A stretch of DNA of 64,000 bases from Streptomyces halstedii (GTDB lineage: Bacteria; Actinomycetota; Actinomycetes; Streptomycetales; Streptomycetaceae). The notes under the pieces were generated by a model, which was not told where the DNA came from, did no database searches, and saw only the letters and a program-made list of their open reading frames with translations. Position 1 is the first letter of the stretch; each line of letters opens with the position of its first letter. The stretch is taken from positions 62,001 to 126,000 of the forward strand of contig JOAZ01000009.1 of the NCBI GenBank assembly GCA_000720535.1. The letters run 5' to 3'. Positions 1 to 23,014 of this stretch are shown here, piece after piece. The translations under genes and the position numbers were made by a program.

Positions 1-982
1 AGACGGCGTTGTCCGGGACCTCCTGCCACTGGTCGCGGAACGGCTCGGTGACCGGCAGGTCCGGGTTCCAGACCGGCTTGGGGGTGGCGGAGCGGTGCTG
101 CACACGGCAGTTGCGCAGACCGGCGACGGCGGAGCCGTGGGTGCCGTCCACCTGGAACTCCACCAGCTCGTCGCGGTTGACGCGGACCGCCCAGGAGGAG
201 TTGATCTGGGCGACGGCCCCGCCCGCCAGCTGGAAGGTGCCGTAGGCGGCGTCGTCGGCGGTGGCCGCGTAGGGCTTGCCCTGCTCGTCCCAGCGCTGCG
301 GGATGTGCGTCCGGACGGTTGCGGAGACGCTGGTGACCTGGCCGAACAGCTCGTGCAGGACGTACTCCCAGTGCGGGAACATGTCCACGACGATGCCGCC
401 GCCGTCCTCCGCGCGGTAGTTCCAGGACGGCCGCTGGGCCTCCTGCCAGTCGCCCTCGAAGACCCAGTAGCCGAACTCGCCGCGTACGGACAGGATCTCG
501 CCGAAGAAGCCGCCGTCGATGAGGCGCTTCAGCTTGAGCAGTCCCGGCAGGAAGATCTTGTCCTGCACGACGCCGTGCTTGATCCCGGCGTCGCGGGCCA
601 GCCGGGCCAGTTCGAGGGCGCCCTCGACATCGGTGGCGGTGGGCTTCTCGGTGTAGATGTGCTTGCCGGCCGCGACGGCCTTCTTGATCGCCTCGACGCG
701 GGCCGAGGTGACCTGGGCGTCGAAGTAGATGTCGATGGTCTCGTCGGCGAGGACCGCGTCCAGGTCGGTGGACCACTCGGTCAGGCCGTGCCGCTCGGCG
801 AGCGCCTCCAGGGCGTGGGCGCGGCGGCCGACGAGCACGGGCTCGGGCCACAGCACGTCGCCGTCGCCGAGGTCGAGACCGCCCTGCTCCCGGATCGCGA
901 GGATCGAGCGCACCAGGTGCTGCCGGTATCCCATGCGTCCCGTGACGCCGTTCATGGCGATGCGCACTGTCCTGCGTGTCAC
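1..982 (-). CDS. Gfo/Idh/MocA family oxidoreductase, C-terminus cut by window edge
   Basis: Reading the minus strand gives a continuous frame of about 327 codons to base 1 with no stop, so the C-terminus lies outside the window. The N-terminus carries a Rossmann-type segment (VRIAMNGVTGRMGY), and further in there is the family EKP motif (HIYTEKPTA), typical of NAD(P)-dependent Gfo/Idh/MocA sugar or inositol oxidoreductases. I chose the GTG at 982 because GGAGGG lies 7 bases upstream of it. The in-frame ATG at 997 overlaps that ribosome-binding site. The gene is divergent from a LacI-type repressor with a LacI-like operator between them, so a sugar-responsive catabolic role is likely. The substrate cannot be told. 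Confidence 0.88.
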   Translation of the reverse strand, partial: MTRRTVRIAMNGVTGRMGYRQHLVRSILAIREQGGLDLGDGDVLWPEPVLVGRRAHALEALAERHGLTEWSTDLDAVLADETIDIYFDAQVTSARVEAIKKAVAAGKHIYTEKPTATDVEGALELARLARDAGIKHGVVQDKIFLPGLLKLKRLIDGGFFGEILSVRGEFGYWVFEGDWQEAQRPSWNYRAEDGGGIVVDMFPHWEYVLHELFGQVTSVSATVRTHIPQRWDEQGKPYAATADDAAYGTFQLAGGAVAQINSSWAVRVNRDELVEFQVDGTHGSAVAGLRNCRVQHRSATPKPVWNPDLPVTEPFRDQWQEVPDNAV

Positions 983-1004
983 GAAAGGTCCCTCCATACA
1001 GCCG

Positions 1005-1020
1005 TAGCAAGCGCTTTCTA
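1005..1020. promoter_or_regulatory. LacI-family operator in divergent intergenic region
   Basis: The 16-mer TAGCAAGCGCTTTCTA is an inverted repeat centred on AAGC/GCTT with 7 of 8 arm positions paired. That is the classical shape of a LacI/GalR-family operator with a central CG. It lies 23 bases upstream of the oxidoreductase GTG and 74 bases upstream of the lacI-like ATG, so it could repress the oxidoreductase and autoregulate the repressor. The assignment is by pattern and position only. Confidence 0.7.
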
Positions 1021-1093
1021 TGAGGGATGACGCTAGCCTGCCGACAGCGGCCCGGACAAGAGGGGCCGCTCCACAACTCCTCGGAGGAGAGCG

Positions 1094-2158
1094 ATGACAG
1101 TCACGCTGGCGGACGTGGCGGCCCGCGCCCGGGTCTCCCCGGCCACCGTGTCCCGCGTGCTGAACGGCAACTACCCGGTGGCCACGTCCACCCGGGACCG
1201 GGTGCTGCGCGCGGTGGACGAACTGGACTACGTGCTCAACGGCCCCGCCAGTTCGCTCGCCGCGGCCACGTCCGACCTGGTGGGGATCCTGGTCAACGAC
1301 ATCGCCGACCCCTTCTTCGGGATCATGGCGGGCGCCGCGCAGAGCGAGATCGGCGGGCCGGGGGACGGATCGGGCCGGGCGGGCGGCGAGAAGCTGGCCG
1401 TGGTGTGCAACACCGGCGGCTCGCCCGAACGCGAGCTGACCTATCTCACCCTGCTCCAGCGGCAGCGCGCGGCGGCCGTGGTCGTCACCGGTGGAGCGCT
1501 GGAGGATCCGGACCACCAGGCCGCCATGGCCGCGAAGTTGGCCAAGCTCGCGGACGCGGGCACCCGGATCGTCTTCTGCGGGCGCCCCCCGCTGCCGGAC
1601 TCGGACGCCGTCGCGGCCTCGCTGGCCTTCGACAACCGGGGCGGTGCCCGACGGCTCACCGAACACCTGCTGGAACTCGGCCACCGGCGGATCGGTTACG
1701 TCGCCGGCCCGCTGGAACGCACCACGACCCGGCACCGGCTGGAGGGCCACCGCGAGGCGATGCGCGCGGCGGGCCTCTCCGGCGACGAGGAAAGCCTGAC
1801 GGTGCACGGCCCGTACGACCGGAGCTCCGGCTACGACGCCACGTGTGAACTCCTGTCCCGCGAAGGGACGGTGACGGCCGTCCTCGCCGCGAACGACACG
1901 GTGGCGCTGGGTGCCTGCGCGGCGGTCCGGGACCACGGGCTCCGCATACCGGAGGACGTCTCGGTGGCGGGCTTCGACGACCTGCCGTTCTCGGTGGACG
2001 CGGTACCGGCGCTGACGACGGTACGACTGCCGCTGGCCGAGGCGGGCGCGCGCGCGGGCCGCCTGGCGATGGGCAAGGAGAAGCCGCCGGCCGGGGGCAT
2101 CACGACGATCGAGGCGGAGCTGATGGTACGGGGCTCGACGGCGGCCCCGCGGGGCTGA
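1094..2158 (+). CDS. LacI-family transcriptional regulator
   Basis: 354 aa. The N-terminus is a canonical LacI helix-turn-helix (TLADVAARARVSPATVSRVL) followed by the hinge region and a periplasmic-binding-like effector domain. The C-terminal half has the family pattern VSVAGFDDLPFS followed by LTTVRLPL. GGAGGAGAGCG lies directly before the ATG, giving a strong start. A short Gly-rich insertion (around GGPGDGSGRAGGEK, residues about 88-101) breaks the first effector lobe and is not typical. The gene is divergent from the oxidoreductase, which is the probable target. The effector is probably a sugar or sugar derivative but cannot be read from sequence. Confidence 0.92.
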   Translation: MTVTLADVAARARVSPATVSRVLNGNYPVATSTRDRVLRAVDELDYVLNGPASSLAAATSDLVGILVNDIADPFFGIMAGAAQSEIGGPGDGSGRAGGEKLAVVCNTGGSPERELTYLTLLQRQRAAAVVVTGGALEDPDHQAAMAAKLAKLADAGTRIVFCGRPPLPDSDAVAASLAFDNRGGARRLTEHLLELGHRRIGYVAGPLERTTTRHRLEGHREAMRAAGLSGDEESLTVHGPYDRSSGYDATCELLSREGTVTAVLAANDTVALGACAAVRDHGLRIPEDVSVAGFDDLPFSVDAVPALTTVRLPLAEAGARAGRLAMGKEKPPAGGITTIEAELMVRGSTAAPRG

Positions 2159-2306
2159 GGGTGCCTTGCTGAACGGCGCGCCCCGCGTCCGAGCGCACGA
2201 CGGCCGGACGCTGAGGTCCGCACGTCCGATACGACGCGGGTCCGGATCCCGCGACCGGTAATCGGCGGGGGCCACCTTCCCACCCGTACGGCCCCCGCGC
2301 ACCGTC

Positions 2307-2364
2307 CCCCGAAAGATGGGGGCCACTCCCCCATGTGCCGGGCCCGCCCGCCCCGCAGGATGGG
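2307..2364 (+). promoter_or_regulatory. 58-bp upstream element, copy 1 (before LanM)
   Basis: Aligned without gaps, this block matches 9271-9328 (upstream of the SARP gene) at 43 of 58 positions by my count, including an identical ATGTGCC at 2333 and AGGAT near the 3' end. CAGGAT at 2356-2361 resembles a Streptomyces -10 box. The block ends 46 bases before the chosen LanM start. It probably contains a promoter plus an activator site shared with the SARP gene. The upstream part also holds a GGGGG/CCCCC hairpin-like repeat. Confidence 0.5.
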
Positions 2365-2410
2365 TCGCGGGAAGGCCGCTCGGTCTTCCACGGCCGGGGA
2401 GGTGGACGCG

Positions 2411-5400
2411 GTGGCGGAGAAGAACACGGTCCGCGGGACGGAACCGCTCACGGCCCCGGCGCCGCGTGTGGCGGCGGCCCGCACGGCCCCCGGGCACCCG
2501 CACGACATCGCGCCGGAGCCGCACGAGCCGTACGGTCCCGCCCGAGCGCCGCGCGACGCCGCCCCGGCAACGCGCAGTCCCCTCCCGGAACCGCACGACG
2601 CCGCACCCGCACAACGCGGCGGCCCCGGCCCGGTCCCACACAGCGTGGCCCCGGAACCGCGCGACCCCGCACCGCACAGCGGCCCTGTCGCCGAGCCGGG
2701 CGACACCGCCCCCGGGTCCGGCACCCACGACCGGACGCCCGGGGGCGCCCCGCTCCTCGGCGCCCGTGGGCACGGTGAGCCGTGGTGGTTGCCCGGTGTC
2801 GTGGGGCAGCCGGCCGGCGGGGAGCCCGACTGGGCCGTGTTCGTGCGGGAGGCCGTGGCGGGCGCACCGGTCGAGGTGCGGGTTCCGGACCGGCCGTATC
2901 CGGACCTGACCGGTTTCGAGCTGGTCGTGGCGCCCTTCGTGGCGCGGGCCGCCGACCGGGTGACCGAGGCGTGCGGGGCGGGCGGCTGCCCCGCCGCCGT
3001 GCTGGAGGGGTTCCGGCAGGACACCGCCCGGCGGCTGGCGCGGCTCGCGGCCCGGACCCTCGTACTGGAACTCCACGAGGCGCGCACCGGGGGCCGGTTG
3101 GGCGGGAAGGGATCGCGGGAGCGGTTCCGGGACTTCCTGCGGCTGACGGCGTGCCGGGCCGGTCTCGCGTCGCTGGTCACCGCGTATCCCGTGCTCTCCA
3201 GGGTCCTCGCGCGCAGCGCGCTGAACGCGGCCGACGCGTTCGCGGAGATGCTCCGCAGGCTCGCGGCCGACCGGGATCTGCTGGCCTCCTCCGGGGTGCT
3301 CGGCGACCGGGGCGCGGGGGTGGCCGGCGGCTGCGGGCCCGATGCCCTGACGGGGGTCGCCGCCGGTGCCGGTGACAGTCACCGCGGGGGCCGTTCGGTG
3401 ATGCTGCTGCGGTTCGCGGACGGTGCCCGGCTGGTCTACAAGCCCCGGCCGCTCGCCGCCCACCGGCACTTCAACACGCTGGTCGCGTGGTTCAACTCCC
3501 GTGTGGGCGGCCCCGATCTGCGCTCGCCCCGGGTGCTCGACCGGGGTGCGTACGGCTGGGCCGAGTTCGTCGAGGAGGCGCCCTGCCGCTCGGCCGCCGA
3601 GACCGCGCACTTCTACCAACGGCTGGGCGCGCTGCTGGCCCTCCTGCACGTCCTGGACGGAACGGATCTGCACCACGAGAACCTGATCGCCCGGGGCCCG
3701 CACCCCGTGCTGGTCGACGTGGAGACGCTGTTCCACCCGCCGCTGGTGCCGGCCGGCTTCGCCGATCCGGCCGCCCGCGCCCTGCACGCCTCCGTCCACC
3801 GGGTGGGACTGCTCCCGCAGTTGCTGGTCGGGGACACCAGCGCGCTCGACATGTCCGCCATCGGCGGAGGCCGGGCGGCGCCCTCCCCCGTCGAGACGGC
3901 GGACTGGGCGGCGGCGGGTACCGACACGATGCGTCTGGTCCGCAGGGCGGGCCGGTTCACCGGGTCCGCCAACCGGCCCCGGCTCGACGGGGTACGGACC
4001 GACCCGTCCGCGTACACCGACGCCCTGTGCGACGGCTTCCGCGCGGCCTACACCGCCCTCAGCGACTTCCGCGACGAACTCCTGGGTCCGGACGGCCTGT
4101 TGAGGATGTTCGCGCACGACGAGGTCCGCTTCGTGCCCCGGCCGACCTCGGCGTACGCCACGCTGCTGCACGAGTCCACCCACCCCGACCTGATGCGCGA
4201 CGCCACCGAACGGCAGCGGGTGTTCGCCCTGTTGCGCACCGGCGCCCTCGGCGCGACGGCGCTGCCCGGTCTGGAGGACGAGGAGATCGCGGAGCTGTGG
4301 CGGGGTGACGTGCCGGTGTTCACCACCCGGCCGGACACCACGGACCTGTGGAGCGGCACGGGGCGCCGGGTGCCCGGATCCGGTGGCCCCCGCGGGCTGG
4401 AACGGGTCGAGGCGAAGGTGCGCGCCCTGGACACGGTGGACCGGCAGGACCAGGAGCGGATCATCCGGACCGCCATGGTCGCCACGTCCGCCGAGCCCCC
4501 GCACCGCGCCTCCGGGACCGGCCGGCCGAGGGTGGCGGCCGCCGCGCCGGAACCGGAACGGCTGCTGTCCGCCGCCCGGTCGGTCGGCGACCAGCTCGTC
4601 TCGCAGGCGTACCACGACGGGAACCGGACCAACTGGATCGGCCTGGAGCTGCTCGGCGAACGCTACTGGCGGCTGACCCCGCTGGCCGCCGACCTCGCCT
4701 GCGGCTACACCGGCCCGGCCCTCTTCCTCGCCCAACTGGCCGCGCTCACCGGGGACTCACGGTACGCCGACGCCGCCCGTGCGGCCCTGGCGCCGGTGCC
4801 GGGGCTGCTGGACGCCCTGCACCGGCGGGTGGACGACCTCGGGGTGCTCGGCTCCGGCGCGTTCGCCGGCCTGGGCGGCATCGCGTACGCCCTGACCGAG
4901 GTGGGAACGCTGCTGGACGATCCCGGGATACGAGAGTGGGCGGGCCCCGCCACCCGGCTGAGCCACGCGGCGGGCTCGGCCGAGGACGGGTGCGGGGTGC
5001 GCGGCGGGGCGGCGGGCGGGCTGGTCTCGCTGCTCGCCGTGCACCGGACCACCGGCCGGGCGGAAGCCTGGCGTGGTGCCGAACTCTGCGCCGAGCGGAT
5101 CGCGGCGGCTCCCCTGCCCATGACGGGGGGCTTCGCGGACGGGGCGGCGGGCATCGGCTGGGCGCTGTTGCGGTTCGCCGGTGCGGGCGGCGGTGCGCGT
5201 TACCGCGAGGCGGGGCTGGCGGCCCTGCGCCGCGCGGTGCTCGGTGACCACGAGGGCCAGGCCTGGTGCCGGGGCACGGCGGGCGTCGCGCTCGCCGTCG
5301 CCGACAGCCCCGACGCCCTGGCCGACCCCGAGCTGGCCGCCTGGCTGGCGGTGCGGGCCGGGGAGCTGGCCGAGGCCGCGCCGCTCGCCGACGACAGCCT

Positions 5401-5707
5401 CTGCCACGGCGAGCTGGGCGTACTGGAGCTGCTGGGCCACTCCGCCCTGCCCCACGCCCGCCCCCACTGGCTGCGCCGGACCGGCATCCTGCTGGCCGCC
5501 GCCGACCGGGCGCAGCCGCACTGCGGGACGCCCGGACACGTACCGCACCCGGGGCTGCTCACCGGCCTGTCGGGTATCGGGCACGGGCTGTTGCGGGCGG
5601 GCTTCCCCGACCGGATCGGCTCCGTGCTGCTCCTGCGCCACTCCGCCGGGATCCCCCCGGGACGGCCCGGCCCCCTCCGTACCCCCGTCGTCGACCACGG
5701 CCGATGA
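2411..5707 (+). CDS. lanM: class II lanthipeptide synthetase LanM with altered cyclase His
   Basis: 1098 aa if started at GTG 2411, which has GGGGAGG 8 bases upstream; in-frame starts at 2333 and 2402 are alternatives. Residues about 1-110 are a Pro/His/Ala-rich low-complexity extension. A LanM dehydratase domain follows with key residues present: K344 (YKPRP), D419/H421/N424 (DLHHEN) and D436/E438 (LVDVETLF). The LanC-like cyclase domain keeps the zinc ligands C953 (WCRG) and C998-H999 (CHGE). However, the family HG motif, usually GFSHGAAG, reads GFADGAAG with Asp at residue 910 (codon 5138-5140). In LanC enzymes that His is the proposed acid/base residue. The adjacent peptide gene encodes no Cys, so the enzyme may only dehydrate Ser/Thr. 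Confidence 0.92.
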   Translation: MAEKNTVRGTEPLTAPAPRVAAARTAPGHPHDIAPEPHEPYGPARAPRDAAPATRSPLPEPHDAAPAQRGGPGPVPHSVAPEPRDPAPHSGPVAEPGDTAPGSGTHDRTPGGAPLLGARGHGEPWWLPGVVGQPAGGEPDWAVFVREAVAGAPVEVRVPDRPYPDLTGFELVVAPFVARAADRVTEACGAGGCPAAVLEGFRQDTARRLARLAARTLVLELHEARTGGRLGGKGSRERFRDFLRLTACRAGLASLVTAYPVLSRVLARSALNAADAFAEMLRRLAADRDLLASSGVLGDRGAGVAGGCGPDALTGVAAGAGDSHRGGRSVMLLRFADGARLVYKPRPLAAHRHFNTLVAWFNSRVGGPDLRSPRVLDRGAYGWAEFVEEAPCRSAAETAHFYQRLGALLALLHVLDGTDLHHENLIARGPHPVLVDVETLFHPPLVPAGFADPAARALHASVHRVGLLPQLLVGDTSALDMSAIGGGRAAPSPVETADWAAAGTDTMRLVRRAGRFTGSANRPRLDGVRTDPSAYTDALCDGFRAAYTALSDFRDELLGPDGLLRMFAHDEVRFVPRPTSAYATLLHESTHPDLMRDATERQRVFALLRTGALGATALPGLEDEEIAELWRGDVPVFTTRPDTTDLWSGTGRRVPGSGGPRGLERVEAKVRALDTVDRQDQERIIRTAMVATSAEPPHRASGTGRPRVAAAAPEPERLLSAARSVGDQLVSQAYHDGNRTNWIGLELLGERYWRLTPLAADLACGYTGPALFLAQLAALTGDSRYADAARAALAPVPGLLDALHRRVDDLGVLGSGAFAGLGGIAYALTEVGTLLDDPGIREWAGPATRLSHAAGSAEDGCGVRGGAAGGLVSLLAVHRTTGRAEAWRGAELCAERIAAAPLPMTGGFADGAAGIGWALLRFAGAGGGARYREAGLAALRRAVLGDHEGQAWCRGTAGVALAVADSPDALADPELAAWLAVRAGELAEAAPLADDSLCHGELGVLELLGHSALPHARPHWLRRTGILLAAADRAQPHCGTPGHVPHPGLLTGLSGIGHGLLRAGFPDRIGSVLLLRHSAGIPPGRPGPLRTPVVDHGR

Positions 5708-5781
5708 CCCGTCACCGATGGCCTGTCAGCGATGACCCTTCCTTGATGACTCCACCCTGATCACCGACAAGTGAGGCAGAC

Positions 5782-5988
5782 ATGACGCAGATCAGCGACT
5801 CGGCCCTGTACACCGCCGCCACCACCGCGTACGAGGGTGCCTCCGAGCACCCTGCGGGCCGGATCTCGCTCGGTTCCGGCGGGGCGCTGGGGCTGCGCAG
5901 CAGACTTCTCAGCTCCTCGGACGGGGACGGCGGCTACGGCCCGGAGCTGCCGCTGACCACCTTCACCGTCCCGCTCACCGCGCTCTGA
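5782..5988 (+). CDS. putative Cys-less precursor peptide for the LanM
   Basis: 68 aa, the first gene after LanM and on the same strand, with AGTGAGG just before the ATG. The N-terminal half (MTQISDSALYTAATTAYEG) would be leader. The C-terminal half is rich in Ser/Thr/Gly, with SRLLSSSDGDGGYG followed by a Thr-rich tail ending TTFTVPLTAL. There is no cysteine anywhere, so no lanthionine can form in cis. Ser/Thr dehydration is still possible. A 14-bp piece of the tail codons (5960-5973) recurs after the stop at 6024-6037, as if the core region had partly duplicated. Precursor status is inferred from position, size and composition; I do not recognise the family. Confidence 0.6.
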   Translation: MTQISDSALYTAATTAYEGASEHPAGRISLGSGGALGLRSRLLSSSDGDGGYGPELPLTTFTVPLTAL

Positions 5989-6165
5989 CCACCTATACCG
6001 CCCCGATCACCTCGCTCCGATCCCCTTCACCGTCCCGGTCCGTCCGGCTTCTTTCACCTTTCTGTTACGGTCCGGCCCCTTTGGCCCTTCCCCTTCACCC
6101 CTTTCGCGGGACAACGCACCGGATTCCGGCGAATGCGCCTACTGCCGCGCTCTGTACGGCTCCAG

Positions 6166-6177: not shown

Positions 6178-9093
6178 ATGCGAGCCACTTCGCCGGTCAT
6201 CGTGGGCCGGGACGACGAGATCGTCCTGCTGGGCAGCGCCCTGGACGCCGCGCGACGGCGTTCGGGGCGGGCGCTGTTCCTGCTCGGCGAGGCGGGGATC
6301 GGCAAGTCCCGGCTGGGAGGTGAATGCGCCTACCGGGCCTACGGTCTGGGCATGCCGGTGCTGCGCGGGCGGGCCGGTTCGACGGGCCTGGTCGTGCCGT
6401 TCCGCCCCCTGGTGGAGGCCCTCTCGTCCCACTTCCGGGCGGCGGGCACCCCCACCGACCCCGAACTGGCGCCCTATCACCCGGCGTTGGCCCGACTGGT
6501 TCCGGAGTGGCGCGGCAGCGCGTCCCCGGGATACACCGAGACCGTGGTCGAACTGGCCGAGGCGCTACTGCGGTTGCTCTCCGTGCTGGGCCGGGACACC
6601 GGCTGTGTGATGCTGCTGGAGGACCTGCACGACTGCGACACGGAGACCCTCGCGGTCGTGGAGTACGTCGTGGACAACCTGGCGGACCTGCCGATCCTCC
6701 TGCTGGGCACCCTGCGCCCGGAGCCGGGGACGGCCCTGGACCTCGTACGCGCGGCCGAGCAGCGCAACAGCGCGGCCGTACGGGAGTTGGGGGCGCTGGA
6801 CGGGACGCAGGTGCGCCTCCTCACCGGCGCCTGTCTTGAGGCCGCGCCCGAGCGGATACCGGCGGCGGTCCAGCGACGGCTGGCCGAACGCGCGGCGGGC
6901 AACCCGTATCTGGTGGAGGTGCTGCTCGCGGACCTGCTGGACACCGGCAGGTTACGGCGGACGGAGAGCGGCTGGGAGGCGGCGGAGCAGCCGGACGGCA
7001 CGCTCCCCTCGCGCATCCTGAGGAGCTGGTCGCGCCGGCTCGACCGGCTGGACGAACCGGTACGGGACCTGCTGCTGACGGCGGCCACCCTCGGCAGCCA
7101 GTTCTCCGTGGGGGTCCTCCAGACCGTCACCGGCCTGGAGGACCGGGCCCTGTTCACCCACCTGAGGTCCGCCGTCGAGACCGGGGTGATCGCCCCCGAC
7201 GGCGCGGCCCCCGACCGCTACACCTTCCGGCACACGCTCACCGCGGAGGCGCTGGTCTCCTCGCTCGCCCCCGCCGAGCGGGCGGCGCTCGCCCGCCGGG
7301 CGGCCACCGCCGTCGAACGCTCGGGTGAGCCCCTGGACGAGGACCGGCGGCAGCTCGTCGCGTCCCTGGAGCTGGCGGCGGGCAACCGCTCGGGCGCCGC
7401 GCTCCAGTTCGCCGAGGCGGGGCGGCGGATGCTCGCGGCGGGCTCGCACGGCTCGGCCGTGGTGCTGCTGGAACGGTCCCGTTCCCTGGCGGCGGAGGCC
7501 GACCGGGCCGCCGTCACCGAGGCCCTGGCGGTGGCCAGGGCCGAGAGCGGGGACCTGGACGGCGCGCTGGCCTTGGTGGAGACGCTCCCCCCGGTCCCCG
7601 CGCACTCGGAGGCGGCCGTCCGGCGCGGAGAGGCCCACATCAAGATCGCCTGGGTGGCGGTGATGGCGGAGCGGGCCGACGACACGGACCGGCAGATCGG
7701 CGCGGCGCGCGCACTGCTCGGTCCGTCGCCCTCCCCGGCGCGGTGTGCCTCGCTCGCGGTCGTCGACGGGCACCTCTCGCTGCTGCCCGGCCAGGAACGG
7801 CTGGATCCGGAGTCGGTCGAGCGGGCCGCCCGCGAGGCCGCCCGCACCGCCGAGGCCGAGGGACTGCCGGTGGTCGCCTGCCAGGCCTGGCAGTTGCTCG
7901 CGCTGCTCACCCGGGAGGAGGGCTTCGACGCGGCCGACGCGTGTCTGGAGCGGATGCTGTCGCTCTCCACCGAGCACGCGTTACCGCTGTGGCGGGTGGA
8001 GGCGCTGGTGCGCCTGGGTGCGAACGGTTTCATGCGGACCGGTGACGCGGCCCGGCTGCACTCCGCGCGGGCGGCCGCCGCGGAGCTGGGGTCACTGCTG
8101 CTGACGCAGACGGTCGACGGGCTGCTCGCCATGAACGCGGTGATGTGCGCCCGGTGGGAGGAGGCGGAGGAGACCGTCGAACGCTCGGTGGAGGTCAGCG
8201 CCCGGATCGGGAATCTCGCCGCCCACCGCTATCTGCTGCTGGCCGGGGCCACGATGGCCGCGCACCGGGGCCGCCGCCGGGAGCGGGACCGCTGCCTCGC
8301 CGCGTTCCGCCGGGCCGGTGGCGAGGACTCCCCGCTGGTGCCCCTGCGGCTGGGGTTCTGCCGGGCCCTCGGCGCGCTGCTGGAGGAGGACCGGGCCTCG
8401 GCCGTGACGGACCTGGACGCCGTGATGGCCTGGGAGCGCGACCACCCGAGCTACTACTACCTCAGCGGCCGCAACGGGCTGCGTCCGCTGCTGCGGGTGC
8501 TCGCGGGCGAGGCGGACCGTGCGGAGTACGAGGAGGTGGCGGCCTCGCCGGGTGCAGCGCTGGCCTGGAACCGGCAGTTCCTCGACCTGGCGGACGCGGT
8601 GCTGCTGGGCAGGGAGGGCGAACGGGCCGCCGCCGTACGGCGGATGGCCGCCTTCGACGCGCGGTCGGCGGCCTTCCCGGTCGCCCGCCACCTGGGGCTC
8701 CGGCTGGTCGCGGACGCGGCGTTCGCCGACGGGTGGGGGGAGCCGGTGTCGTGGCTGCGCACCGCCGAGGAGTACTTCTACGACGCCGGGGTGCAGCCGG
8801 TGGCGGCGGCCTGCCGGGCGGCCCTGCGGCAGGCCGGGGTGAGCGTGACCCAGCACCGGGACGGCCGGGACCGGATCCCCTCACCGCTGCGGACGCACGG
8901 GGTGACCCCCCGGGAGTACGAGGTGTTCGTCCTGCTGGCCGAGCGTCCGGGCAACCAGCAGATAGCGCGTCGGCTGTCCATCTCGCCCCGCACGGTGGAG
9001 AAGCACCTGGCGAGCCTGATCAGCAAGACGGGCCGGGCGAACCGGGCGGCCCTGTGCGAGTTCGCGGCGGAGTGCCTGGTCGACCACGCCTGA
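6178..9093 (+). CDS. LAL-type LuxR-family regulator (ATPase plus C-terminal HTH), two TTA codons
   Basis: 971 aa, the usual size for large ATP-binding LuxR regulators. The N-terminus has VGRDDEI, then a Walker A motif (GEAGIGKS, about residues 38-45) of an STAND-type ATPase. A long helical TPR-like middle follows. The C-terminus is a LuxR/GerE helix-turn-helix (TPREYEVFVLL, then ISPRTVEKHLASLISKTGR). Two leucines are encoded by TTA (6952-6954, codon 259; 7981-7983, codon 602), the rarest Streptomyces codon. Translation should therefore depend on the bldA tRNA. It lies between the LanM/peptide pair and the SARP gene and is probably a pathway activator. The transcript may be leaderless. Its stop codon lies inside a minisatellite. 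Confidence 0.93.
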   Translation: MRATSPVIVGRDDEIVLLGSALDAARRRSGRALFLLGEAGIGKSRLGGECAYRAYGLGMPVLRGRAGSTGLVVPFRPLVEALSSHFRAAGTPTDPELAPYHPALARLVPEWRGSASPGYTETVVELAEALLRLLSVLGRDTGCVMLLEDLHDCDTETLAVVEYVVDNLADLPILLLGTLRPEPGTALDLVRAAEQRNSAAVRELGALDGTQVRLLTGACLEAAPERIPAAVQRRLAERAAGNPYLVEVLLADLLDTGRLRRTESGWEAAEQPDGTLPSRILRSWSRRLDRLDEPVRDLLLTAATLGSQFSVGVLQTVTGLEDRALFTHLRSAVETGVIAPDGAAPDRYTFRHTLTAEALVSSLAPAERAALARRAATAVERSGEPLDEDRRQLVASLELAAGNRSGAALQFAEAGRRMLAAGSHGSAVVLLERSRSLAAEADRAAVTEALAVARAESGDLDGALALVETLPPVPAHSEAAVRRGEAHIKIAWVAVMAERADDTDRQIGAARALLGPSPSPARCASLAVVDGHLSLLPGQERLDPESVERAAREAARTAEAEGLPVVACQAWQLLALLTREEGFDAADACLERMLSLSTEHALPLWRVEALVRLGANGFMRTGDAARLHSARAAAAELGSLLLTQTVDGLLAMNAVMCARWEEAEETVERSVEVSARIGNLAAHRYLLLAGATMAAHRGRRRERDRCLAAFRRAGGEDSPLVPLRLGFCRALGALLEEDRASAVTDLDAVMAWERDHPSYYYLSGRNGLRPLLRVLAGEADRAEYEEVAASPGAALAWNRQFLDLADAVLLGREGERAAAVRRMAAFDARSAAFPVARHLGLRLVADAAFADGWGEPVSWLRTAEEYFYDAGVQPVAAACRAALRQAGVSVTQHRDGRDRIPSPLRTHGVTPREYEVFVLLAERPGNQQIARRLSISPRTVEKHLASLISKTGRANRAALCEFAAECLVDHA

Positions 9094-9178: not shown

Positions 9179-9270
9179 CTGAGGACGACCGCCCGGCGGA
9201 CCACCCACCCCGCCCATGGGGGCGCGGGGCGGCAACATGGGGGCCCCGGGCGTCGGAGGTCGGGTGCGCG

Positions 9271-9328
9271 CCCCGGAACATACGGGGCACTCACCGATGT
9301 GCCCCGCCCCCTGGCCCGGAAGGATCGG
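9271..9328 (+). promoter_or_regulatory. 58-bp upstream element, copy 2 (before SARP gene)
   Basis: This is the gapless counterpart of 2307-2364 (43 of 58 identical). Conserved blocks include CCCCG-AA-AT at the left, ACTC, ATGTGCC at 9297 and AAGGAT at 9320-9325, which may be the -10 box. It ends 82 bases before the SARP ATG. Shared position and sequence suggest that one activator controls both the SARP gene and LanM. Confidence 0.5.
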
Positions 9329-9410
9329 CGGGTGTACGGCGGCCCGTCCCCGTCCGGTCGGCCGGTGTACGGCAGCCCGCCGCCCGTCCCCCCGCCCTGG
9401 AGGCCCGCCG

Positions 9411-11282
9411 ATGACCCGCCCTCCTGCCCGACCCGCCCCCACCGGCTCGGTGTACTTCTCCCTGCTCGGCCCCCTCACCGCCGTGCTGGACGGCAGACCC
9501 CTGCCACTCGGGCCCCGCAAGCAGCGGCTGGTGCTGGCCACCCTGCTGGCCCGCCCCAACACCCCCGTACCGGTGGATGTGCTGACCGACGTGGTGTGGC
9601 CGGAGGCGCCCCCGCGGACCGCGCGCAAGAACCTCCAGGTCTACGTCAGCGCCGCCCGGACCCTCTTCGGTGCCGTGGACGGCGGTGACCGGGACCGGGT
9701 GGTGCACGGCTGCGGCGGATACCGGTTGCGGATCGAGGAGGGCGAGCTGGACACCCTCCGCTTCCGGGCGCTGGCACGGGCCGGACGGGCCGCCGGTGAG
9801 CGGGGCGACCTGCGCACCGCGGCCCGGCTGCTGCGGGAGGCGCTGGACCTCTGGGGTGAACGCCCGCCCCTGCACGACCTGCGGGACTCGGCCGTGGTGG
9901 CGGACGAGGCGGAGCGGCTGGAGGCCCGGTGCCTGACGGTCTACGAGGACTGGGCGGAGGCCGAGATCGAGACGGGCCGGGCCGCCGCCGCGGTGGACGG
10001 CCTGCGGGACCTGGTGGAGCGTCACCCGCTCCGCGAGCGGCTGCGGGCGGCCTGGATGAACTCCCTGCACCAGTCCGGCCGGCAGGCGGAGGCGCTGGAG
10101 GTGTACGACGACTACCGGCAGTTACTCGCACGGGAGTTGGGGCTTGAGCCCAGCCCGGCGCTGGCCGCACTCTACGGCCGCCTCCTCGGCCGGGGTGCCG
10201 CACCGCGCCCGGCCGGGCCCCGCCCGGCCGCACGGGACGTGTCGCTGCCCGCGGACCTCCGGGTCTTCACCGGACGCGACGACGAACTGGCCCGGCTGCT
10301 CCCGGTGGCGGGCGCCCCGGACGGCGGTGTGGTGGTCGTGACCGGCCCGGCCGGGGTGGGCAAGTCGGCGCTGGCGGTGCGGGCGGCGCACCTGCTCGCG
10401 GAGGACTTCCCCGACGGGCGGGTGCACGTCCGGGCCCGGCACCAGGACGGCACGGCACGCGTCCGGACCGACATGCTGGAGGAGTTGCTACGGCTGTGCG
10501 GCGCGGGGACCTCGGGCAGGCCCGACGCGGCGGAGGCGGAGGGCGCCTGGCAGGACTGGCTGTCCCGGCACCGGGCCCTGGTCGTGCTGGACGACGTGGC
10601 GGACGAGGCGTCGGTGCGCGGGCTGCTGCCCCGGTCGGGCCGCTCCTCGGTGCTGCTGACGGCGCGCGGGCTCCTGGCCGGGCTGGCGCCCGTGCACCGG
10701 ATCGCCCTGTCCGCGCCGGAGGAGGACGAGGCGCTGGACCTGCTCGGGAGGCTGATCGGCGCGGACCGGCTGCGGACCGACCGGGCCGCGGCGCTGCGCA
10801 TCGTACGGGCCTGCGGGGCGCTGCCGGTGGCGGTGGCGGTGAGCGGGATGCGGCTGGCGGTGCTGCGGCACCTGCCGTTGGCGGAGTACGCGGCCCGGGT
10901 CGAGGACCCGTCGGCGGCCCTGGACGAACTCGTCGCCGGGGACGTGTCCGTACGGTCGCGGATCGCGGCGGGCTGGCGGGACCTCGGTCCGGGCGACCGG
11001 GGGGCGCTGGCACGCCTCGCCGACCTGGCCCCGGACGGCGGTTTCACCCTGGAGCGGGCGATGGAGGCCCTGGGGTGCGGGGAGCGGGGGGCGATCCGTA
11101 CGGTCGAGTCACTCATCGGCACCGGTGCGGTGACCTCACCGGCCGGGGAGGTCACCGCTCACGCGGCGTTGTACGAGGTGCCGCGCCTGTTCTGTCTGTA
11201 CGCCCGCGAGCGGTCCGGGGGCGGTGCGGGCGGGCCCGGAGCAGGTGTGCCGGAGCCCGCCCTGCCGTTCAGCCGAGGGTGA
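9411..11282 (+). CDS. SARP/AfsR-type regulator with BTAD and NB-ARC domains, one TTA codon
   Basis: 623 aa from ATG 9411, which has CTGGAGG upstream; the longer in-frame extension to 9216 is low-complexity and unlikely. Domains in order are an OmpR-type winged helix (GPRKQRLVLATLL, about residues 38-50), a bacterial transcriptional activation domain (about 100-250) and an NTPase with Walker A GPAGVGKS (about residues 312-319). The C-terminus is NB-ARC-like and lacks the TPR array of full AfsR. Leu238 is encoded by TTA (10122-10124), so expression should require bldA. The gene ends 14 bases inside the convergent LanKC gene. It is probably the direct activator of one or more of the RiPP modules. 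Confidence 0.92.
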   Translation: MTRPPARPAPTGSVYFSLLGPLTAVLDGRPLPLGPRKQRLVLATLLARPNTPVPVDVLTDVVWPEAPPRTARKNLQVYVSAARTLFGAVDGGDRDRVVHGCGGYRLRIEEGELDTLRFRALARAGRAAGERGDLRTAARLLREALDLWGERPPLHDLRDSAVVADEAERLEARCLTVYEDWAEAEIETGRAAAAVDGLRDLVERHPLRERLRAAWMNSLHQSGRQAEALEVYDDYRQLLARELGLEPSPALAALYGRLLGRGAAPRPAGPRPAARDVSLPADLRVFTGRDDELARLLPVAGAPDGGVVVVTGPAGVGKSALAVRAAHLLAEDFPDGRVHVRARHQDGTARVRTDMLEELLRLCGAGTSGRPDAAEAEGAWQDWLSRHRALVVLDDVADEASVRGLLPRSGRSSVLLTARGLLAGLAPVHRIALSAPEEDEALDLLGRLIGADRLRTDRAAALRIVRACGALPVAVAVSGMRLAVLRHLPLAEYAARVEDPSAALDELVAGDVSVRSRIAAGWRDLGPGDRGALARLADLAPDGGFTLERAMEALGCGERGAIRTVESLIGTGAVTSPAGEVTAHAALYEVPRLFCLYARERSGGGAGGPGAGVPEPALPFSRG

Positions 11283-13941
11283 GCAGTTCGAGCAGCCCGG
11301 CGGGGGCGGGGCCCGTACCCTTCCCGCCCTCGTCCCCGGCCCGGTCCTCGCCCCGGGACAGGAAGTGCAGGCCGAGCAGGACGCCGGCCGCCCCCGTGGC
11401 GAGGTCGGCGGAGAAGCGGCGCAGGGTCGCGCCCGGCACCAGCAGCCGGTCCTCGTCGGCGACGAGGTGCCAGGTGAGGTTGCGTACGGAGGCCAGGACG
11501 TCGTCGTCCTTCCCGGCGCCCGTCGCCGTACCGCGAACGGCCCCGGCGCCCGTCGCCGTACCGGAGGGGACCCCGGCGCCCGTCGCCGTACCGAGCTGGC
11601 CCGCCGCGGCGACGAGTCCCGTCCGCCCGGTGAACAGGCCCGGTTCGCGGACGAATTCCGTGACGCAGCCCGTACGCACCCCCGAGAGCAGGGCGCTCGG
11701 CGCGGGCTGCCCGAACCGGGCGGCGTACGCCTGGGCCACCAGGGCGACGCCCGCGCTGCCCTGGTCCAGGTAGAGCAGATGGCGCCGGCCGTCCTTGACC
11801 TGGACGGAGCCGCCGGGCATGGCGACGAGGTGCCCGGTCTCCCGGTCCAGCGCCTCGCGTGCCGCCTCCCGCAGCCACTCCTCGCCGGTCAGCGCGTACA
11901 GCTCCATGTGGAGCAGGGCGGCCCCGCTCAGCCCGCGCAGCAGTCCCGCCGACTCCGGGAGGCGCGTCCCCGGTACCGCCTCTCCCCGTACCAGCTGGTC
12001 CAGGTCCCACGCGGTGCGCAGGGCGGTGTCGAGCAGCGCCTGGTCGGGGGACGGGCCCGTGGCGCGGGCCATGCGCAGGGCCGCGAGCGCGATCCCGGCG
12101 CGCCCGGTGAGCAGGTCCGCCGAACCGGCCGCCGGTGCGGGCGACATGGCCCGGTCCCACAGCTCCCGCCCCTGCTCGCCGCGGCCGAGGAGGGTGAGGA
12201 CGAGGGCCGTGCCCGGCAGCCCGTCGTAGAGTCCGCCCGCCGCGGCGGGGTCCCGGCGGAGCGCGGCCGAGGCGAGCCAGTCGGTCCACTCCCCGGGGAC
12301 GGGGGCGCCCACCCGGTGCAGCGCGTACAGGACGCCCGCCGCGCCGTGCGCGATGCCGGTGCCCCCGGTGGCGAAGAGGCCCGGGTCGCCGGGGAAGAGC
12401 CGGTCCGCCCGCTCCGGGGTCGCCCCGGAGCGGATACCGGCCAGCAGGCGGGTGCGGATCTCCGCCCAGTCCGGGACGGGTCCGTCGAACAGGGCGGCCA
12501 CCTCCGCCTCGCGTTCCCGTGAGGCCGTCGCGTCCCGGAGCAGCCGGGGCCGGGCCGGTCCGGCGTCGGACGGGAGGCCGTAGCGGCGCCGGGCCCAGCT
12601 CTCCAGGGTGAGGGCCTTCGCCCTCTCGTGTCCGGCCATCTCCGTGATCGGCATCAGCATGGTGAGCCAGGTCGCCCAGAGCGCGTAGGCGTCCGCCTCC
12701 GCCCCGGGCGTGCCGGGGGGCGCCTGGAGCCCGAGGGCCCCGGCCAGCGGGGTGCGCTCGTCGTCCAGCGCGGTGGCGTACTCGAAGTCGATGAGGGCGA
12801 CGCGGCCGTCGGGCCGGAGGATGATGTTGGAGGGGTGCAGGTCGCCGAAGCGGAGACCGCGCGCGTGGATCGCCTCCAGCGCCCGGGTCAGTTCACCCAG
12901 CACCGAGTCCACCCACTGGGTGTACGGGGCGAGTCGGTCCGCCGTGTCCGCCCCGCGCACGAGGGCGAACCGGGCGACGATCTCCTCCAGCAGGGTGCTG
13001 CCCTCGATGTGCTCCTCGATGAGGAAGTGGTGCTCCCAGACGGTCCGTACCCCGTACACCTCGGGTACGCAGTCCAGTCCGGCCAGTGCCGTCAGCGCCC
13101 GGTGCTCGCGGTGCAGCCGGGTCACGGCGTCGTCGCCCGCGCCGTCGAGGCCGCAGTGCGGACGCGCCTCCCGGAGCACCACCTGACGGCCGGTCTCCCG
13201 GTGCCTGGCCCGGTAGATCCCGCCCGCGTTGGAGAACTGGAGCGCCTCGGTGACCGTGTAGGGGAAGCCGTCGTCGCGGGCGGCGGCCCGCGCGGCGAGG
13301 TGCGGCCGCAGGGCCGCGGGGACGTCGAGCCACTCGGGCATCCGGAAGACCACACCGCGTTCGTCCGGCACCAGCGTCCCGGAGGGGTCGCGCAGGGCGA
13401 GGACCCGGCGGCCTTCGGCGTCGGTGCACCAGAGGGGGACGTAGGCGCCGTACCGGGTGTACACCGGGGCGTCACCGATGCGCAGGTCGCTGAGGACGTA
13501 GGGGCCGCTGCGCCCCGCCAGCTCCCGGGACAGCGCGTCGGCCAGGGTCAGGAACACGGCCTCGTCGGGCGGGTAGACGGCGATGAACTTGCCCGCGCCG
13601 CTGCGGTTCATGTACTTGTCCGCCATGAGCAGCAACGCCCGTTCGCTGCGCAGGAACTTGAACGGCACCCCGTGGCGGAGGCAGAGCCGGGCGGTGTCCC
13701 GCAGGGTGGCCTCGGCCTCCTCGGGCACGGTGGACACATGGATCTTCCAGCCCTGCTCGGCAGGTCGGGCGTCCTCGGGCACCAGCGAGGTCCACAGGCC
13801 CACGGCTTCGCGCCGCCAGCCGGCCGGGGGCGGTTCGCTGTCGAGCCGGTACCGGGTCTCCTGGTCCGGCAGCCGGTCCGGGACGTCGAAGTACCTGCGG
13901 TCGGCGAGGCAGTAGAGCTGGGTCTCCTGGGGGCCTGGCAC
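11269..13941 (-). CDS. lanKC: class III lanthionine synthetase LanKC
   Basis: 890 aa from GTG 13941, with AAAGGAGAG upstream; the in-frame GTG at 13968 lies before that ribosome-binding site. It has the three-part LabKC/RamC architecture. The N-terminal lyase domain (about 1-220) contains GVPFKFLRSE and GAGKFIAVYP. The central Ser/Thr-kinase-like domain (about 230-500) contains GLRFGDLHPSNI and ALIDFEYA. The C-terminal LanC-like domain (about 530-890) lacks the zinc-binding Cys-Cys-His set, as usual for class III. Near the C-terminus a linker repeats GTATGAG three times. With the downstream MFS exporter and 51-aa precursor it forms a complete minimal class III cluster. The 3' end overlaps the SARP gene tail to tail. 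Confidence 0.93.
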   Translation of the reverse strand: MPGPQETQLYCLADRRYFDVPDRLPDQETRYRLDSEPPPAGWRREAVGLWTSLVPEDARPAEQGWKIHVSTVPEEAEATLRDTARLCLRHGVPFKFLRSERALLLMADKYMNRSGAGKFIAVYPPDEAVFLTLADALSRELAGRSGPYVLSDLRIGDAPVYTRYGAYVPLWCTDAEGRRVLALRDPSGTLVPDERGVVFRMPEWLDVPAALRPHLAARAAARDDGFPYTVTEALQFSNAGGIYRARHRETGRQVVLREARPHCGLDGAGDDAVTRLHREHRALTALAGLDCVPEVYGVRTVWEHHFLIEEHIEGSTLLEEIVARFALVRGADTADRLAPYTQWVDSVLGELTRALEAIHARGLRFGDLHPSNIILRPDGRVALIDFEYATALDDERTPLAGALGLQAPPGTPGAEADAYALWATWLTMLMPITEMAGHERAKALTLESWARRRYGLPSDAGPARPRLLRDATASREREAEVAALFDGPVPDWAEIRTRLLAGIRSGATPERADRLFPGDPGLFATGGTGIAHGAAGVLYALHRVGAPVPGEWTDWLASAALRRDPAAAGGLYDGLPGTALVLTLLGRGEQGRELWDRAMSPAPAAGSADLLTGRAGIALAALRMARATGPSPDQALLDTALRTAWDLDQLVRGEAVPGTRLPESAGLLRGLSGAALLHMELYALTGEEWLREAAREALDRETGHLVAMPGGSVQVKDGRRHLLYLDQGSAGVALVAQAYAARFGQPAPSALLSGVRTGCVTEFVREPGLFTGRTGLVAAAGQLGTATGAGVPSGTATGAGAVRGTATGAGKDDDVLASVRNLTWHLVADEDRLLVPGATLRRFSADLATGAAGVLLGLHFLSRGEDRAGDEGGKGTGPAPAGLLELLTLG
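11512..11593. repeat. 30-bp in-frame tandem repeat inside LanKC
   Basis: Three copies of a GC-rich unit (CCCGGCGCCCGTCGCCGTAC core) recur at 11512, 11542 and 11572. The 30-bp period adds ten codons per copy (GTATGAG plus a variable triplet) within the LanKC C-terminal domain, so copy number can change without breaking the frame. Confidence 0.8.
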
Positions 13942-14031
13942 GCTCGGCTCTCCTTTCGCGAAGCCCACCGGGGGCGCGGGGCCCGCCGAGGGCGCGGGCG
14001 GTGGGTGCGGGGCGGGTGTTCCGCGCGCGGA

Positions 14032-15393
14032 TCAGTCCCCGGGCACGGCACGGTGCGCGCCGGCCGGTGCGTGACCGGGGTCGGGCGCCGGTACGTGACC
14101 GGGGGCGGGCGCCGGTGCGGTACGGGGGCCGGACTCCGGTCCGGGACCGGGGTCCGGGGACGGCGGGTCCGCGGGTTCCGGCGTCCGGTGCGGGGTGATC
14201 CGCTGCCGTGTCGAGGGCGCCAGGGTGACCACGAGGGCGGACACGGCCAGCACACAACCGGTCAGGGTGAACGCCCAGCGGGCGCCGAAGGCGGTCAGCA
14301 GCGCGCCACCGGCCAGCGGTCCGAACGGCTGGACGATGGAGGACAGGAAGCTCGCCGCGCTCTGCACCCGCCCCACCCGCTCCTCGGGGGTCACGATCAG
14401 CAGGGTCGAGAGGAACCCGATGCTGGCGATCGTCGCCAGGCACATGCAGAGCGCGCAGAGGGCCCCGGCCACCAGCGGATCGGTGAACCACGCCATCCCC
14501 CCGGCGGCCGTCACACAGGTCCAGCAGGTGGCGAGGATCAGGAGCCGGGAGTGCCGGTCGGGGTTGATCCGCGGCGCGATCAGCGCCCCGGCCAGTGCCC
14601 CGGCCGAGACGCAGGTGATGACGAAGCCGCCGCCCACACCGGAACGGCCTCCCTCGGAGAACACGGACAGCGCGGTGAAGGTGAGCGCCCCGAACGCGAA
14701 GTTCATGCCCAGGCCGAAGACGAGGAGCACCGTCCGCAGATAGGGGATGCCCCAGAGGAAGGACAGGCCCGCCGTCAGCTCGCGTCTGCTGAACACCGGA
14801 CCCGCCGTGGTCCTGGCCCGGGAGCGGGTGCGTACGAGGGCCACGCAGACCGTGGACAGCAGCAGGCCGACCGCCTCGGACGCGAAGGGCAGGGCCGGGT
14901 GGACACCGAACAGCGCGCCCCCGACGAGCGGTCCGACCAGCCGGACCGTCTGGGTGCGCGCCTGGAGCCGCGCGGTGGCGGTGCCCATCTGCTCGGGCGG
15001 GACGACCGCGCGCATCAGGCCGAAGACGGCCGGGGCGTAGATGCTGCTGAGCACCGCGCCGGAGGCGGCGACCAGCAGGACGAGTGCCATGGGGGCCCGC
15101 CCGAACCAGACGGCCGTGGCGAGGGCGGTGACGACGGTCAGGGAGCCGATGTCGCACAGCCGCATCAGCCGCCGGCGTTCGACGCGGTCGGCCATGACAC
15201 CGCCGGGCAGCATCGTGATCAGCACGGCTCCCACGGCGACCGTCCCGACGGAGCCGGCCTGCACCGCGGAGCCGGTCTCCCTGAGCACGAGCAGGGGCAG
15301 GGCGAGGGCGCTCATCTGCGCCCCCAGGACGGCGAAGAGGCCGCTCATCCAGAGCAGCCGGAAATCCCGGTTGTCGCGCAGCGGCGTGGTCAT
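14032..15393 (-). CDS. MFS exporter of the class III lanthipeptide cluster
   Basis: 453 aa from ATG 15393, with GGGAG upstream. The start MTTPLRDNRDFRLLWMSG matches the usual N-terminus of MFS_3-type (macrolide/EntS-like) exporters. About 12 hydrophobic segments are visible, with the loop signature GGVMADRVERRRLM between TM2 and TM3. The last 45 residues are a Pro/Ala/Gly-rich tail with short repeats, probably disordered. It lies between LanKC and the precursor on the same strand, so export of the modified peptide is likely. No ABC exporter of the LanT type is nearby. The terminator at 15607-15646 between precursor and exporter suggests reduced read-through. Confidence 0.85.
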   Translation of the reverse strand: MTTPLRDNRDFRLLWMSGLFAVLGAQMSALALPLLVLRETGSAVQAGSVGTVAVGAVLITMLPGGVMADRVERRRLMRLCDIGSLTVVTALATAVWFGRAPMALVLLVAASGAVLSSIYAPAVFGLMRAVVPPEQMGTATARLQARTQTVRLVGPLVGGALFGVHPALPFASEAVGLLLSTVCVALVRTRSRARTTAGPVFSRRELTAGLSFLWGIPYLRTVLLVFGLGMNFAFGALTFTALSVFSEGGRSGVGGGFVITCVSAGALAGALIAPRINPDRHSRLLILATCWTCVTAAGGMAWFTDPLVAGALCALCMCLATIASIGFLSTLLIVTPEERVGRVQSAASFLSSIVQPFGPLAGGALLTAFGARWAFTLTGCVLAVSALVVTLAPSTRQRITPHRTPEPADPPSPDPGPGPESGPRTAPAPAPGHVPAPDPGHAPAGAHRAVPGD

Positions 15394-15606
15394 CGGAGGC
15401 TCCCGGTGGTCGTCGGGGTGGTGACGAGAGGTGCGGGCGGCCGCGTGGGGCGGGGTCGCGCGGACGCGGTGTGCCGCGCCCGGATCCGTGACCCGCCGTA
15501 CGGCGCCCGCCGCCCGCGACGCGCGGGCCGGGGCCCGGCACGGGCCGCAAGCGGCGGCGGGGCGGTCTCCGTCATGACGGAGCCGCCCCACTCACCGGCC
15601 GGCCGG

Positions 15607-15664: not shown

Positions 15665-15820
15665 TCACTTGGCGTTCTCGACCACGCTGACCAGGCTGAC
15701 GCAGTTGCCCGGGGCGATGACCTCGTGCACGGAGGTCTCCTGGAGGTCCAGCACGGAGTGCGCCTCGACCTCGGGGGTCTCGTTGGTGTCGTCGGCCGCG
15801 GGCTTGGTGTTCTCGGACAT
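15665..15820 (-). CDS. lanA: class III lanthipeptide precursor with VLDLQ leader motif
   Basis: 51 aa, ATG 15820, with GGAG 9 bases upstream. The leader is acidic and Thr-rich and contains VLDLQ at residues 23-27, the conserved recognition motif of class III leaders. The C-terminal core carries one Cys (residue 40) preceded by TS (29-30) and followed by two Ser (42, 45), with the tail SVVENAK. One Cys allows only one (methyl)lanthionine or a labionin-like closure. The spacing from S30 to C40 is wider than the usual S-x2-S-x(2-5)-C pattern, and the residues after the Cys form a hydrophobic tail. The gene lies upstream of MFS and LanKC on the same strand and is followed by a strong hairpin. Confidence 0.85.
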   Translation of the reverse strand: MSENTKPAADDTNETPEVEAHSVLDLQETSVHEVIAPGNCVSLVSVVENAK

Positions 15821-22939: not shown

Positions 22940-23014
22940 GGGGAGGACACGTACGCCGGGCCCCTCGGGAGTGACGTCCCGGGCGCCGGCCCGCGCAGGA
23001 CGGAAGGACACACC

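Follow-up and report, generated by a model that had tools for sequence, protein, structure and literature searches.

What does a class II lanthipeptide synthetase (LanM) produce when its cyclase domain lacks the acid histidine and the peptide encoded beside it lacks cysteine? The question is raised by a locus of Streptomyces halstedii (assembly GCA_000720535.1, contig JOAZ01000009.1, positions 62,001 to 126,000 of the forward strand); this stretch of 64,000 nucleotides was analyzed as a whole and is referred to as the window. Comparison with related loci makes it reasonably likely that the enzyme dehydrates a Thr-Thr core, forms no thioether, and yields a linear peptide containing dehydrobutyrine (Dhb).

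A LanM with a replaced cyclase acid

The window protein is a fusion of a DUF4135 dehydratase and a LanC-like cyclase domain (415.6 bits for DUF4135 and 76.7 bits for LANC_like in a Pfam scan), and it matches the NCBIfam LanM model TIGR03897 at 691 bits against a cut-off of 304. Its gene is the only one with DUF4135 in the genome. The GTG at 2411 is an internal codon in the same frame as the longer open reading frame (ORF) listed in Table 1, the start codon of which is provisional. A preliminary description of this DNA had reported intact dehydratase residues, kept zinc ligands, and an Asp in place of the cyclase His (GFADGAAG), and all three statements proved correct. The protein has the equivalents of CylM D252, H254, K274, D347, H349, N352, D364, R506, and T512, nine residues assigned to phosphorylation and elimination by mutagenesis (PMC4550811; papers given by PMC number are cited here and below for excerpts of their text). 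The cyclase motifs read GGFADGAAG, AWCRGTAG, and SLCHGELG, so that the zinc triad C/C/H is complete and the acid His of the HG motif is replaced; the codon concerned, 5138-5140, is GAC and encodes D910 when counted from the GTG at 2411, or D936 from the upstream ATG.

When solved structures were searched with a profile of the cyclase domain, the acid column paired with the SHG of LicM2. CylM was aligned via another HG, with its His835 inside an insertion, and the assignment of the acid column is therefore carried by LicM2 and by the LanM alignment. A predicted LanM structure of mediocre confidence (mean predicted local distance difference test score 63.9, eight sequences) gave LicM2 and CylM as top fold matches. 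Thus the window LanM shares sequence, fold, and the nine dehydratase residues with these two enzymes; it differs from them in the two replaced cyclase residues described here and in a family precursor that is mostly Cys-free. In LanC chemistry, the acid His protonates the enolate, and its replacement is harmful in NisC, SpaC, LctM, ProcM, and LanCL1/2; a second residue, the one that directly follows the zinc Cys (Lys876 in CylM and His277 in LanCL1), interacts with the oxygen of the enolate (PMC9934072). Both the acid His and this enolate-side residue are replaced in the window LanM, the latter by Arg.

Related loci came from two sources: a scan of genome contigs, in which the LanM protein as query gave 35 loci (24 being close Streptomyces relatives, one listed as [Kitasatospora] papulosa), and 16 longer regions taken after a peptide search of Streptomyces genomes, three of these regions repeating loci of the protein scan. 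Identical copies (L094-L096) and loci ending before the acid site (L021, L024) were left out of the residue counts; one of the four fragments of a gapped gene (L025) was counted for the acid site and three were dropped, one aligning off-frame as C/C/A. This left 35 distinct Streptomyces family members, the window included, for the acid site, and 34 for the following residue and the zinc ligands. The acid position was D in 23, E in eight, T in three, and N in one of them. Since it is never His in any of the 35, a sequencing error at 5138-5140 can be rejected. All nine dehydratase residues were complete in 56 of the 59 aligned rows, the remaining three being the fragments of L025.

For a control set, 246 genomes of the class were searched for DUF4135, which provided 22 new loci: one (L121) belonged to the family, four had no readable site, and 17 were used. 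In these non-family actinobacterial LanMs the acid position was His in 16 cases and Asn in one. Following the zinc Cys, controls carried H (nine), N (four), S (two), A (one), or R (one), and family members R (10), E (10), D (10), G (three), or T (one). Hence E, D, G, or T stands at this site in 24/34 family members versus 0/17 controls; the Arg found in the window is not diagnostic, because one control has it too. For LanCL1 with Asp after the zinc Cys, the loss is described as comparable in size to that seen with Lys, about 200-fold (PMC9934072). The control with Asn at the acid position (L131, genome G441) also has Cys as its third zinc ligand.

The Cys-free peptide and its relatives

The small Cys-less peptide gene adjoining the LanM was found as previously described. 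It encodes 68 amino acids (aa), its ATG at 5782 is preceded by the Shine-Dalgarno-like GTGAGGCAG, and the leader is EHPAGRISLGSGGALGLRSRLL. In every Streptomyces family locus with a LanM that extends that far, an ORF of 64-68 aa lies between the LanM and a LuxR-type gene. For the comparison, 33 ORFs were picked by ATG start, a length of 56-79 aa, and a P-x-T-T pattern; the peptides are also listed in a pattern-free comparison. A like peptide followed the LanM in all 33 loci, which rules out a chance small ORF. Not counted among the 33 were L025 (peptide present and Cys-free), L082 (peptide without LanM), the copies L094-L096, and L020, L021, and L024, which end before the peptide.

Twenty-eight of the 33 peptides are Cys-free and five have one Cys, at differing places: in the leader (L017, L088), between leader and Thr-Thr (L084), or as the last residue (L085, L087). 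Hence the expected pairing of a His to Asp change with Cys-less precursors was borne out as regards the loss of the His, while the replacement is not Asp alone and the absence of Cys is not universal. Leader residues P24, G26, G34, L36, R39, and L43 are invariant, as are P57, T59, and T60, although choosing the ORFs by their P-x-T-T pattern in part accounts for its invariance. Two residues past Thr-Thr, 30 peptides have T, two S, and one I. The window peptide has no Cys able to form a (methyl)lanthionine and in this respect departs from a lanthipeptide precursor.

Scans with Pfam and NCBIfam assigned the peptide to no model and gave only sub-threshold chance matches. The family peptide was detected at E ≤ 1e-5 in 29 of the 295 Streptomyces genomes sampled, that of the window included. 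When the peptide alignment was used to search the class, matches at E ≤ 0.001 were obtained in 7 of 394 genomes, three clear ones, all in the genus of the window, and four weak ones (E 1.7e-4 to 7.3e-4); because 15 candidates per genome were scored, absence elsewhere in the class is weak evidence. A plasmid search with the peptide returned no match. In L082 (genome G041, 1-6000), the peptide, LuxR, and SARP genes are present and no LanM match occurs in the 6 kb upstream, where long frames have what we take to be a polyketide-synthase-like look; a real loss, a rearrangement, or a misassembly may account for this arrangement.

More distant relatives differ in their cyclase sites. The LanMs of two Actinoalloteichus loci (L026, L031), 41-44% identical, retain both His residues and the zinc site. 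The L026 peptide is Cys-free, has 78 aa, ends with LPPITTVSAPGTQL, and precedes a LuxR gene 46% identical to that of the window. In L031, the peptide frame continues past the expected stop and the expected last residues are found in another frame, leaving the end uncertain. A further relative from the genus of the window (L117, genome G563; LanM 42-45% identical) carries Glu as the acid-site residue and has T, G, and R where the three zinc ligands would be, and no dehydratase residue is lost. Its peptide of 73 aa, ending with SSVDTSVSAPIGGA, likewise precedes a LuxR gene that shares 46% identity with its window counterpart. Position and motif, rather than a test of significance, place the peptides of L026 and L117 with the family, the L026 peptide being 22% identical to that of the window. 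Cyclase chemistry thus appears to have been given up to differing degrees around one kind of peptide. In a tree of the dehydratase domain, L092 (T at the acid position) branches first, then L117 (E) together with Actinoalloteichus (H), and then the rest, with long branches flagged by the program; this order implies three losses of the acid, or one loss and one regain.

Probable dehydration without a ring and its alternatives

These data are read most economically as leader-guided phosphorylation and elimination at Thr-Thr. The LanM would be a class II enzyme specialized for dehydration, which recognizes the conserved leader of the adjacent, mostly Cys-free peptide as its presumed substrate. 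It would phosphorylate and eliminate Thr-Thr, and usually also the third Thr or Ser, in a C-terminal P-x-T-T-x-T core. Modification would halt at this stage, as most of these peptides offer no Cys for addition and the enzyme is without the acid for enolate protonation; with Cys, acid, and enolate residue all wanting, formation of a thioether is unlikely. Removal of the leader would then release a short linear peptide containing Dhb, and the LanC-fold domain would be retained as a scaffold or for substrate handling. A precedent by analogy for such a supporting role may be the dehydrazole synthetase CcaM (LanMbC), which has a DUF4135 dehydratase, makes dehydroamino acids without thioethers, and needs its retained cyclase-fold domain for dehydration, the only reaction it performs (PMC10676384). 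CcaM differs in that its cyclase domain is of the zinc-less class III type and in that it needs azoles made by a YcaO protein (PMC10676384). The window LanM keeps the zinc triad and so lacks the type of domain that characterizes dehydrazole synthetases, and the Pfam scan of seven window genes showed no YcaO.

Comparative support for dehydration without a thioether, as put forward in the preliminary description, comes from all 33 loci, in which loss of the acid is accompanied by a mostly Cys-free precursor, and from L117, where the whole zinc site is lost. Several observations weigh against it. None of the 34 Streptomyces family members counted deviates from C/C/H at the zinc ligands, and purifying selection on the cyclase domain is no weaker than on the dehydratase: median ratios of nonsynonymous to synonymous substitution rates (dN/dS), obtained by a simple counting method from pairs that are not independent, were 0.338 for the cyclase, 0.395 for the dehydratase, and 0.629 for the peptide. 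A dead domain would need neither constraint nor ligands. Furthermore, L084, L085, and L087 carry their Cys near or in the core, where a ring is possible; the L117 peptide has one Cys mid-sequence and no Thr-Thr in its C-terminal part; the window does hold a Cys-containing peptide (15665-15820), seemingly the substrate of a class III synthetase, LanKC; and in Actinoalloteichus a Cys-free peptide accompanies a complete active site, so that loss of the acid and loss of Cys are not strictly coupled. The original idea is thus to be modified insofar as Asp is not the point, the coupling is loose, and the cyclase domain is not in decay. Decay is unsupported by the dN/dS values and by the ratio of cyclase to dehydratase divergence, with a median of 0.90 (528 family pairs) versus 0.81 in Corallococcus (21 pairs) and 1.00 in mixed canonical LanMs (21 pairs). 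The domain therefore has some role, perhaps a structural one only.

The kept zinc triad and the low cyclase dN/dS would also be expected if the zinc site were still active and the LanC domain added an external thiol, which in Streptomyces is mycothiol, to Dhb, as human LanCLs add glutathione. The LanCL precedent (PMC9934072) comprises the LanC fold, the zinc triad, and an intermolecular chemistry that requires no Cys in the substrate. LanCL1/2 however keep both His residues that are gone in the window LanM, and 20 of the 34 family members have an acidic enolate-side residue, a change that greatly slows LanCL1 (PMC9934072); given that L117 has entirely lost the zinc site and that four of the 35 members have T or N as acid-site residue, we regard external thiol addition as improbable. 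An attack on Dhb by an amine, carboxylate, or hydroxyl, in which the Asp or Glu takes part, would fit the constrained domain and the D or E found in 31/35, and it is similarly doubtful: the same four members have T or N, and no other nucleophilic side chain is invariant in the C-terminal part of the peptide. More broadly, the LanC domain could have been repurposed, its acid and enolate residues lost in one or more events and its zinc ligands and sequence still under selection for a zinc-dependent step other than an intramolecular thioether on the Dhb-Dhb core, such as conjugation to mycothiol; the modified peptide would then act as a signal to which the neighboring LuxR-type regulator responds. 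We consider this unlikely as well.

Other alternatives involve the Cys-containing peptide of the window, which has a C-x-S-x-x-S core (CxSxxS peptide). LanM and LanKC might jointly process it and the Cys-free peptide into a product of two peptides, perhaps linked by an intermolecular thioether. The genes adjoin each other in the closer lineages and a possible two-peptide complex has been proposed (PMC11251773), yet L084, L085, L087-L092, and L117 have LanM and peptide with no LanKC match in the fetched DNA, L086 being exceptional in having one, and the CxSxxS peptide was not found in L084-L092, L117, or L026. A joint product is accordingly quite improbable. That the LanM instead acts on the CxSxxS peptide, or on a Cys peptide encoded at a distance, and cyclizes it without the His seems very improbable even though the window holds a Cys peptide; this judgment comes from the loci compared, with no genome-wide search for a distal precursor. 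The CxSxxS peptide has a class III-type VLDLQ leader segment and sits with a major facilitator superfamily (MFS) gene and LanKC, and it was found in 21 of the 22 distinct loci with this LanKC cassette (the window included, L011 via its copy L094) and in no family locus devoid of the cassette. The one cassette locus where it was missing, L018, stops 237 bases beyond its MFS match.

Dehydration as the final step thus remains the preferred reading, for a system that is real, conserved, and partly known. Excerpts of PMC11251773 list the CxSxxS peptide as a reverse-labionin-like subfamily C (II/III, D-CCH/L-Unk, C.S..S) and note an additional Cys-free peptide in those clusters. Streptomyces origin, LanM with LanKC, CxSxxS peptide, and Cys-free peptide are all present in the window, whose cluster is very likely of this type, judged by these features rather than by a comparison of accessions; a difference is that the LanM cyclase is classed as CCH there. 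PMC7268733, citing Zhang 2015, notes LanM and LanKC clusters whose LanM precursors lack Cys and then leaves them out. An unusual class of ribosomally synthesized and post-translationally modified peptides, as initially suggested, is therefore not entirely new, the cluster with its Cys-free peptide being already in print (PMC7268733, PMC11251773). The lost acid seems to have gone unremarked. The excerpts of these two papers, supplements aside, contain nothing on a lost acid His, relatives without LanKC, a zinc-less relative, or a P-x-T-T core, and those of PMC9889658 and PMC12328550 nothing further on Cys-less LanM precursors. In the literature on Cys-less LanM or LanM with LanKC, of which Zhang 2015 was not covered, we found no description of loss of the cyclase acid, and of the zinc site in one lineage, with an intact dehydratase and a conserved precursor.

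The relatives form a natural series on the role of a lanthionine cyclase domain without a ring: the full site in Actinoalloteichus, acid and enolate residues lost with zinc kept in the Streptomyces family, and zinc lost too in L117. Across this series the dehydratase residues are intact and the peptides look like one family. Because the genome-mining rule demands a Cys in the core (PMC7268733), such peptides are discarded, although 29/295 Streptomyces genomes sampled carry one and linear Dhb peptides are what they point to.

Neighboring genes and the LanKC cassette

Features of the locus are collected in Table 1. The large LuxR-type regulator, together with a SARP gene in most family loci, suggests that the product may be regulated or serve in signaling.

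Table 1. Genes of the LanM locus and the adjoining LanKC cassette in the window
Feature	Coordinates	Strand	Remarks
LanM-type class II synthetase	2333..5707	+	dehydratase (DUF4135) residues intact; cyclase Asp at acid position (codon 5138-5140); first zinc Cys (codon 5267-5269) followed by Arg (codon 5270-5272)
Cys-free 68-aa precursor (predicted)	5782..5988	+	ATG 5782, stop codon ends 5988; P57-x-T59-T60 near C-terminus
Large LuxR-family regulator	6178..9093	+	AAA_16 and GerE; beside the peptide also in Actinoalloteichus and G563
SARP/BTAD regulator	9216..11282	+	most family loci; no match in L084, L092, L117
Class III LanKC	11269..13968	-	RamC_N; closer Streptomyces lineages; part of adjoining cassette
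MFS transporter	14032..15591	-	predicted exporter
51-aa peptide	15665..15820	-	one Cys, VLDLQ leader segment, core C-x-S-x-x-S; likely LanKC substrate

The CxSxxS peptide gene, upstream of the MFS and LanKC genes and some 10 kb from the LanM, had been overlooked in the preliminary description. Its homologues were chosen by their N-terminus and not by the core motif; each of the 20 distinct sequences has one Cys and the pattern C[VI]SxxS[VL]V, in which Cys before SxxS is the reverse order of the labionin motif. The VLDLQ segment is presumably of the kind known in class III leaders, and the peptide is best read as LanKC's own putative substrate. Its place inside the cassette set back another candidate explanation, that LanKC acts on the Cys-free peptide.

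Some lineages deviate from this arrangement. The LanKC match of L086 is distant (34.8%) and lies upstream of the LanM (89-2275, minus strand), unlike in its tree neighbors. In L010, and likewise in its copy L096, two CxSxxS peptides with differing cores are arranged in tandem (22654-22815 and 22884-23057, minus strand). Downstream of the SARP gene, where other lineages carry LanKC, L089 has a CxxxCxxC protein and a transporter-like frame (16364-17944, reverse-complement coordinates), with similar frames in L085 and L090; we assume from its motif that the protein is radical-SAM-like. Finally, the genome of the window contains a second RamC_N gene of the class III type (G000:C3:206843-207403).

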